Of a stretch of DNA of 64,000 bases, positions 10,472 to 12,663 are shown one piece after another. Under the pieces are notes generated by a model that did not search any database, was not told the origin of the DNA, and was given only the letters and a program-made list of their open reading frames with translations. Source of the stretch: K189A clade bacterium. Lineage in GTDB: Bacteria > Pseudomonadota > Gammaproteobacteria > Pseudomonadales > Azotimanducaceae. Numbering within the stretch: position 1 is the stretch's first letter; each line of letters starts with the position of its first letter. Made by a program: the position numbers and the translations under genes. Location: positions 1 through 64,000 of the forward strand of contig CACFGV010000003.1 of assembly GCA_902565895.1 (NCBI GenBank), in the 5' to 3' direction.

Positions 10472-10497
10472 AAAGCCGGGCTTGCCCCGGCTTTTTT
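10472..10497 (+). terminator. Rho-independent terminator after tuf
   Basis: A perfect 9-base stem (AAAGCCGGG at 10472-10480, CCCGGCTTT at 10486-10494) has a 5-base loop and runs into a T tract. It lies 21 bases past the tuf stop and separates the str operon from the S10 operon. Confidence 0.9.
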
Positions 10498-10848: not shown

Positions 10849-11160
10849 GTGCAAAATCAGCGTATCCGCATTCGCTTGAAAGCCTTTGATCATCGTCTTA
10901 TCGATGTGTCGACGAAAGAGATTGTCGACACTGCAAAGCGAACGGGGGCGCAGGTCAAAGGACCTATCCCTTTACCGACGCGTAAAGAGCGCTACACGAT
11001 TTTGATATCGCCCCACGTCAATAAAGATGCACGTGACCAATATGAAATTCGCACCCATAAACGTCTCCTGGATATCGTAGAGCCAACAGAAAAAACAGTC
11101 GATGCGCTAATGAAGCTCGACCTTGCTGCTGGCGTAGAAGTGCAGATTAGTTTGAATTAA
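10849..11160 (+). CDS. rpsJ: 30S ribosomal protein S10
   Basis: S10 is part of the 30S head and also partners NusB in transcription antitermination. The 103 residues match E. coli S10 closely from [19 protein letters not shown] to the C-terminal [11 protein letters not shown]. The start is GTG at 10849 (no ATG fits), with GGTGGAG upstream. It leads the S10 operon. Unusually, 232 bases separate it from rplC, and that spacer is highly structured. Confidence 0.97.
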
Positions 11161-11175
11161 GACGGGCTGAATGCT

Positions 11176-11359
11176 CAGCGCGTAAGGCGCTGTGTGGATG
11201 GTTTGTTAAATGGCAAATCAAGCGCAGCGCATACGACCAAAAGGCTCCGATAGGGAGCCGGCGAAAGGTGTAAGCCAAGCTCATCTCCCAACGGACATTG
11301 GGAGGCGGAGCTTGGCACGCTGCGTTTTCGCGTAACGCCCTTGAGGGTAGTGCGCAGCG
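11176..11359 (+). ncRNA. Candidate structured RNA between rpsJ and rplC
   Basis: The spacer folds by simple pairing into a hairpin (CAGCGC 11176-11181 with GCGCTG 11187-11192) and then a three-way junction. The closing stem is 11220-11229 with 11318-11327 (ten pairs, one G-U). It encloses GGCTCC/GGAGCC (11243-11259) and a long arm, GCCAAGCTC plus CTCCCAA pairing with TTGGGAG plus GAGCTTGGC (11274-11316). The CGCAGCG of the closing stem recurs at 11353-11359, so CGCTGCG (11318-11324) has two competing partners. GCGCTG at 11187-11192 likewise could pair with CAGCGC at 11225-11230. There is no T tract. A cis-acting switch controlling rplC and downstream genes is inferred; an inserted repeat element is the alternative. 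Confidence 0.55.
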
Positions 11360-11392
11360 GATGTTTGAGACAGATTGATAGGACAAAGACCA

Positions 11393-12061
11393 ATGGCACT
11401 TGGACTGGTTGGTAAAAAAAGCGGCATGACACGCATCTTTAATGAAGAAGGCGTCTCCGTGCCGGTGACAGTTATCGAGGCTGAACCGAATCGTATTACC
11501 CAGGTTAAAAGCGTTGAAAGCGATGGATATACAGCGGTTCAGGTGACTACGGGCGAGCGCCGCTTGAGTCGTGTAAGCAAGCCGATGGCGGGCCATTTTG
11601 CCAAGGCCAATGCCGGTGCTGGCCGCGGTCTCTGGGAATTTCGTGCCCAGGCTACAGAGGGTTTAGACGTTGGTGGCGAACTCACGGTCGAGCAATTCAC
11701 CGCCGGTCAGCAGGTTGATGTTCAAGGCGTCTCCAAAGGTAAGGGTTACGCCGGGACCATTAAGCGCTGGAATTTTCGTGGTCAAGACAATACTCACGGT
11801 AACTCTATTTCCCACCGTGCTCCTGGATCAATAGGTCAATGCCAGACCCCAGGGCGGGTTTTTAAGGGTAAAAAAATGTCGGGCCAGATGGGTAACGTGC
11901 GTGTGACTACGCAGAACCTAGAGATCATAGAAGTCGACGTGGAACGAAACCTAATCATGGTTAAGGGAGCCGTCCCTGGACCCACTGGCGGCGATGTATG
12001 TATACGTCCAGCGATTAAGAGTGGTGGCGAAACTGCTGTCGCTGGCGGAGAAAGCGAATGA
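11393..12061 (+). CDS. rplC: 50S ribosomal protein L3
   Basis: L3 is an early assembly protein that reaches the peptidyl-transferase centre. From the ATG at 11393 it has 222 residues, starting [20 protein letters not shown] lies 9 bases upstream, and the longer TTG start at 11375 adds non-homologous residues. The conserved core includes [35 protein letters not shown] and [14 protein letters not shown], the latter containing the glutamine that is methylated in E. coli. A short acidic tail replaces the E. coli C-terminus. Its stop overlaps the rplD start (ATGA). Confidence 0.96.
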
Positions 12062-12663
12062 ATTTAGATTTAGCAGTTAGCGGTGGCAGCGTTGAGCTGG
12101 CCGAAACAGCCTTCGCTAGGGAGTATAACGAGGCCCTAGTCCACCAAGTCGTAGTGGCTTATATGGCTGCGGGACGCCAGGGATCCCGGGCGCAAAAGAA
12201 CCGCTCAGCGGTCAGTGGCGGTGGTAAGAAGCCATGGCGGCAAAAGGGTACGGGTCGCGCTCGTGCAGGAACGACGCGTTCGCCGATTTGGCGCTCGGGT
12301 GGCGTCACCTTTGCTGCTCAGCCGCAAGACCACTCCACAAAAGTGAACCGCAAAATGTACCGCGGCGCGTTGCGCTGTATCGTTTCAGAACTGATTCGTC
12401 AGCAACGCTTGATCGCTGTTGAATCCTTCGCGGTGGAAGCGCCAAAAACTAAGGCGTTGCTGACGCAGCTGAAAGAGTTGGAAATTTCTAACGGCTTGAT
12501 CATCACCGAAGAAGTCGATGAAAACCTGTTCTTGGCGGCGCGTAATGTAAAGGCAGTGGACGTTCGCGATGTCGAAGCAATCGACCCAGTTAGCCTCATC
12601 AGTTACGACAAGGTGCTGATCACCGTTCCGGCTTTGAAGAAACTGGAAGGAGTGTTGGCATGA
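12058..12663 (+). CDS. rplD: 50S ribosomal protein L4
   Basis: L4 binds 23S rRNA and lines the exit tunnel. In E. coli it is also the autogenous repressor of the S10 operon. It has 201 residues, the E. coli length. The tunnel-loop segment is visible in [19 protein letters not shown] and [19 protein letters not shown]. The start overlaps the rplC stop and its own stop overlaps rplW, indicating tight translational coupling. It is the obvious candidate regulator for the structured RNAs found before rpsJ and before rplC. Confidence 0.97.

Follow-up and report, generated by a model that had tools for sequence, protein, structure and literature searches.

The S10 operon of a K189A clade bacterium raises the question of what is encoded in the long stretch between rpsJ and rplC. 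We examined it within a window of 64,000 nucleotides (contig CACFGV010000003.1, positions 1 to 64,000 of the forward strand), to which all coordinates refer unless a locus is named. A sequence-only reading of this DNA had called the gap unusually wide, and it measures 232 bases here vs. 32, by annotation, in E. coli (locus L344). The explanation that we regard as likely, judging from sequence comparisons, is that the mRNA segment 11233-11328 is an autoregulatory leader of the S10-leader type, set between rpsJ and rplC, with ribosomal protein L4 as its presumed controller.

The rpsJ-rplC gap and its predicted RNA

The genes and RNA features of the gap are as follows.

10849..11160, + strand: rpsJ (S10), open reading frame with GTG start, 5′ of the element
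11162..11183, + strand: first 5′ hairpin, from the predicted fold; its sequence varies among relatives
11187..11230, + strand: second 5′ hairpin, from the predicted fold; its sequence is not kept in alignment A1
11233..11326, + strand: leader core kept in relatives, as in covariance model R1
11243..11259, + strand: conserved hairpin GGCTCC-GATAG-GGAGCC, with compensatory changes; matched to the first hairpin of the E. coli S10 leader
11267..11276, + strand: small hairpin GGT-GTAA-GCC, competing with the base of the long stem
11274..11316, + strand: long stem, from the predicted fold; matched to the second hairpin of the E. coli S10 leader
11318..11324, + strand: CGCTGCG, with possible partners at 11223-11229 and 11353-11359; these alternatives are not kept
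11325..11328, + strand: T run after the long stem, a possible attenuation site
11379..11383, + strand: TAGGA, likely ribosome-binding site of rplC, from sequence
11393..12061, + strand: rplC (L3), open reading frame with ATG at 11393
12058..12663, + strand: open reading frame that we take to be rplD (L4) from its place among the genes and its sequence; proposed regulator

The spacer has a predicted folding energy of -101.3 kcal/mol, compared with a shuffle mean of -76.9 kcal/mol (z = -5.52), and none of 200 shuffles folded as well. The fold proposed earlier, a hairpin followed by a three-way junction with long stems, was recovered in part: the hairpin at 11243-11259 and the long stem at 11274-11316 are predicted, while the three-way junction is just one alternative. 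In the predicted minimum fold, 11318-11324 pairs with the downstream copy at 11353-11359 and not with 11223. The repeats themselves had been placed correctly (CGCAGCG at 11223-11229 and 11353-11359, CGCTGCG at 11318-11324). The suggestion that CGCTGCG chooses between its two CGCAGCG partners describes a peculiarity of this genome, the alternatives not being kept in seven close relatives. In L003-L009, which are near relatives, upstream pairing extended to 4-6 pairs at best (upstream DNA is lacking for L009), and in every case, upstream and downstream alike, at least 5% of shuffles paired as well. The T run after the long stem is present in 8/8 of the closest sequences and, by a similar rule, in none of the other genus spacers. 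The small hairpin carries a GNRA-type loop across much of the genus, and several relatives have a terminator-like hairpin with a T run at the place of the first 5′ hairpin.

No promoter was found by consensus between 10400 and 12100 (1.1 in shuffles). Further upstream, a strong hairpin with T runs lies at 10472-10494, 3′ of tuf and 5′ of rpsJ, in a tuf-rpsJ gap of ~400 bases, and rpsJ may therefore have a leader and promoter of its own. Against Rfam 15, the gathering score was reached across the whole window by two tRNAs only; around the spacer nothing reached it, and the best of seven permissive matches had an E value of 0.12. The E. coli S10 leader likewise has no Rfam match up to E 1, which explains the empty result for the window.

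Occurrence and covariation in the genus and family

With a query that included the ends of both genes, 39 of 58 related genomes matched some part of the region. The pattern AAGRYYCCGAYAGGGRRYYNNYGNNNGGC, run over the genome contigs, returned 26 loci, all 26 of them between rpsJ and rplC (24 with both genes, one with rpsJ only and one with rplC only), and had no match among viral contigs. These loci belong to marine Gammaproteobacteria, including the K189A clade and HTCC2089, itself placed in the K189A clade. R1, built from 29 genus sequences, matched 33 of 40 genus genomes at E 0.01, 31 of them at E 1.4e-10 or better. One genome, G004, holds two copies of the region on contigs C36 and C46 (L004 and L040), one near a contig end; its contamination is 6%, and the double copy probably reflects a strain mixture.

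The family sample comprised 130 distinct rpsJ-rplC spacers, part of which came from 150 genomes, 127 with rpsJ, through the reading of 30 loci and 80 stretches (110 places in all). A rule based on flank and loop recognized the conserved hairpin in 63/130 spacers (0.68 expected in shuffled spacers), and a rule that also required pairing recognized it in 61 (0.46 expected); counts of 61, 62, and 63 reflect differing rules. With pairing required, it was absent from all 88 spacers taken from the order's other families. All 63 hairpin-bearing spacers are at least 141 bases long, and 46 of the 130 family spacers measure 70 bases or less. The hairpin is absent from 19 of the 82 spacers of at least 100 bases and from all shorter ones. 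Where present, it starts 95-240 bases 5′ of the rplC start codon (median 139). A simple script placed a terminator-like hairpin downstream of rpsJ and upstream of the element in 26 of these 63 spacers, so that the two genes may be transcribed separately; the one that the script lists for the window is unconvincing. Terminator-like hairpins with a T run lie directly 3′ of rpsJ in, for example, the spacers of L047 (2059-2268), L121, L123, and L141. Nine family spacers of 101-191 bases without the conserved hairpin (L129, L134, L136, L137, L139, L154, L155, L204, and L206) seem to be mainly terminator-like hairpin. Over the rest of the order, R1 matched 42 of 390 genomes at E 0.01; six of the 30 loci inspected lie beside rpsJ and rplC, and the other 24 look like chance.

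Collecting the spacers of relatives, building a covariance model and testing covariation, the check that the sequence-only reading had recommended, revealed compensatory changes in the hairpin at 11243-11259. In the genus alignment the helix 11243-11248/11254-11259 is paired in all cells, with three pairs changed on both sides, the would-be junction-closing helix is 89.7% paired, and the base of the long stem 46-79%. RNAalifold recovered the first hairpin and the small GGC-GNRA-GCC hairpin only. In 49 distinct family sequences, picked by flank and loop and not by pairing, 98.6% of the hairpin's cells are paired and 49 cells show double changes, whereas shuffles gave 15.8 and sliding the partner strand gave 1 to 16; the count of double-changed pairs was matched by 58 of 500 shuffles. 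A second stem, CCGTTTACC/GGTAAACGG, is kept in other genera of the family (21 sequences), with 99.1% of cells paired and 39 double-change cells vs. 12.1 in shuffles. Counts of further pair types did not exceed shuffles (288/500 were as high for the genus alignment, and 500/500 for the alignment of R3, a second model described below). Alignment A4 retains one row, L176, with a misplaced hairpin. The expectation of a conserved cis-acting RNA before rplC-rplD has thus been borne out, with compensatory changes.

Likeness to S10 leaders and to 23S rRNA

According to a review, L4 controls the E. coli S10 operon at the levels of both transcription and translation by way of a leader of this kind (PMC10931766). 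When R1 was run on the rpsJ locus of E. coli (L344, 1701 bases, rpsJ at 700), its best match fell at 586-678, in the leader before rpsJ (12.5 bits, E 0.0004 in 1.7 kb). The predicted fold of this leader contains both hairpins, which we take to be those named D (first) and E (second), and R1 aligns end to end with S10 leaders. The hairpin at 11243-11259 has a loop that starts with GA, one of the two openings (GA or AA) expected of the S10-leader type.

R1 was also run over 37 loci (73 kb) chosen from 74 gammaproteobacterial rpsJ loci, all six hairpin-bearing ones included, and gave 12 matches at E 2. The three best matches lie upstream of rpsJ, in Klebsiella (E 0.003), L346 (0.004), and E. coli (0.017), and ranks 5 and 6 were the S10 leaders of Proteus (0.21) and L345 (0.27), with rank 4 elsewhere; the E values in 73 kb are roughly calibrated and the individual matches are weak (E 0.003-0.27). 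The Aeromonas S10 leader was missed at E 2. R3, whose 21 source leaders come from other genera of the family, placed Klebsiella, Proteus, E. coli, and L345 at ranks 2-5, L346 eighth, and Aeromonas thirteenth, its rank 1 being a false match inside rpsJ; over a previous set of 29 loci, the E. coli and L345 leaders took ranks 1 and 2 with this model and the L346 leader rank 5.

A similar hairpin lies 102-118 bases 5′ of rpsJ in 6 of the 74 loci (0.73 expected in shuffles), flanked by ACA in five and by ATAA in Proteus. These counts follow from a loop rule widened to a final T after L345 and L346 had been seen; by the stricter rule E. coli alone passes among 30 loci (0.095 expected). Elsewhere the hairpin pattern has two extra matches each in E. 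coli and Aeromonas, at other distances, and it has none in the rpsJ-rplC spacers of the 74 class loci. Two of the 74 come from the order itself and one pair shares the same spacer sequence; for 51 of them all 260 bases upstream of rpsJ were available.

Taken together with the gene order, this kinship suggests how the element could work. Surplus L4, made from the second gene downstream, would bind the hairpin and the long stem, and the bound leader would reduce the output of rplC, rplD, and the genes after them, because transcription stops near the T run at 11325-11328, because rplC is translated less readily, or through both effects. S10 would escape this control because rpsJ lies upstream of the element. 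We infer the L4 mechanism from position and kinship.

The same gap holds a different RNA in much of the remaining order. Reading 85 places in a sample of 105 genomes, 97 with rpsJ, together with four loci collected earlier, yielded 88 distinct spacers, all from the order's other families. In 73 of them a loose pattern identified a near copy of 23S rRNA, at ~285-337 in E. coli numbering as reckoned from a marker. We take helices 19-20 of domain I of 23S rRNA to be the L4 site. The copy lies just 5′ of the ribosome-binding site of rplC, for example at 437-501 in L282 and at 365-429 in L264. A fragment of 23S domain I has been used as a known L4 target (PMC7186457). In the alignment of model R2, built from 56 of these spacers, 97.2% of cells are paired and 7 of 13 pairs show double changes. 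Searched against 33 loci with 23S rRNA (four from the genus and 29 from the order), R2 matched this same site in 32 loci with E values no higher than 0.0001, and the remaining locus (E 0.14) is cut by a contig end. When spacers were compared with ~3 kb round the 23S site, the best local match fell on the site in 8/8 order spacers, with scores that no more than 0.7% of shuffles equaled; for seven of these the 23S came from the same genome and for one from another. Over 45 order loci R2 found 30, of which 12 were not used in building it (one of the 12 shares a used spacer). A strict pattern for the 23S-like leader, which recovers 47 of the 88 order spacers, occurred in one of 369 genomes of the class (5 of the order), so that absence of the leader outside the order is weakly indicated.

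Many genus leaders gave a likeness to another part of 23S, ~916-968 bases after the marker, among them L002 and L005 (two of four tested against shuffles) and also L011. The best 23S scores of the four leaders tested were reached by 1.7% to 78% of shuffles. Given these shuffle scores, the lack of independence among genus leaders and the inability, by eye, of that 23S stretch to form the conserved hairpin, this likeness was set aside as probably due to chance.

A third arrangement occurs elsewhere in the class. The apical loop TCAATCGNAAT of the second E. coli hairpin, also present in the leaders before rpsJ of Klebsiella and Proteus, lies between complementary flanks in the rpsJ-rplC gap of 12 of the 74 class loci (11 distinct spacers; L353, L354, L355, L359, L361, L366, L380, L386, L389, L390, L398, and L407). 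It was found in none of the 130 family spacers and none of the 88 order spacers.

Competing explanations and comparison with known systems

The leader could instead respond to another product of the operon, L3, L23, or L2, with its hairpin resembling that of S10 leaders by convergence. This is unlikely, in our view: rplC is indeed the first gene downstream, the individual matches to S10 leaders are weak and the E. coli apical loop is missing, but models from two separate leader sets both favor S10 leaders over other loci, and the end-to-end alignment of R1 points the same way. We give very little credence to a small-molecule riboswitch or another undescribed switch. The strong fold and the conserved loop and flank would suit one, but the proposed switching pairs are not kept, the likeness is to a protein-binding leader, and among the loci examined the element is confined to this ribosomal-protein gap. 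The sequence-only reading had favored an undescribed switch, which is not supported, the element resembling the known S10 leader; a ribosomal-protein autoregulatory site, its other suggestion, is supported as the likeliest kind of element, and so is L4 as a ligand candidate.

It is similarly improbable that the window element is a copy of the 23S L4 site like those in other families of the order. The gap and genes are the same, and the site score of one family leader, L123, was reached by just 2.7% of shuffles; against this, R2 had no significant match in the window region (best E 0.57) and none at E 1 among 82 family loci, R1 misses the site in the 33 loci with 23S, and the best 23S match fell at the site in 0 of 11 family leaders tested. 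The E. coli S10 region likewise gave no significant R2 match (best E 7.1). A gap with strong hairpins might further suggest a mobile repeat or a functionless structural relic, an explanation that we consider close to untenable. The element has one copy in its own genome (69% complete), which refutes a scattered mobile repeat, and its fixed place in many genomes and its compensatory changes argue against a relic as well.

The S10-leader-type reading bears on L4 control beyond this family. According to the review, an E. coli-like L4 site is not found in Pseudomonas (PMC10931766). A literature search, with subscription papers mostly outside its reach, found no paper on an rpsJ-rplC leader in Pseudomonadales and none on a 23S-like leader there, which is not proof of novelty. 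Judging from the spacers compared here, the L4 target of this order may lie ahead of rplC and not of rpsJ. More broadly, and here we see the arguments as evenly balanced, L4 control of the S10 operon could be widespread in Gammaproteobacteria, including Pseudomonadales, with an RNA target that often lies between rpsJ and rplC and is built of modules that can replace one another: this family would use an S10-leader unit, much of the remaining order a close copy of the L4 site in 23S rRNA, and some other lineages the TCAATCGNAAT hairpin. S10 would thereby be freed from control by its own operon. L4 regulation of the S10 operon in Pseudomonadales is now directly testable, and the order provides a natural series of different RNAs that may recognize one protein, with rpsJ outside the control.

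Several structured RNAs of ribosomal-protein operons invite comparison. The 23S-like leaders of the order share the gap and the genes with the window element and probably the regulator, while no sequence or model match connects them. Compared by description, a candidate L4 leader of Archaeoglobi likewise precedes rplC, but it is archaeal and carries a question mark from its authors (PMC7247131). The Peptostreptococcaceae rpsJ motif, also compared by description, is a structured RNA of the S10 operon, but it belongs to Firmicutes and to the 5′ UTR of rpsJ (PMC11109978). The closest counterpart is the E. coli S10 leader, with which the element shares two hairpins in the same order and in the same operon, the first having in both cases a 6-bp stem, a 5-nt loop, and an A-rich 5′ flank. 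Unlike the E. coli leader, it lies before rplC and not rpsJ, and its second stem is longer, different, and without the TCAATCGNAAT loop. The element is thus probably an L4-responsive unit of the S10-leader type placed before rplC, and not a new class.
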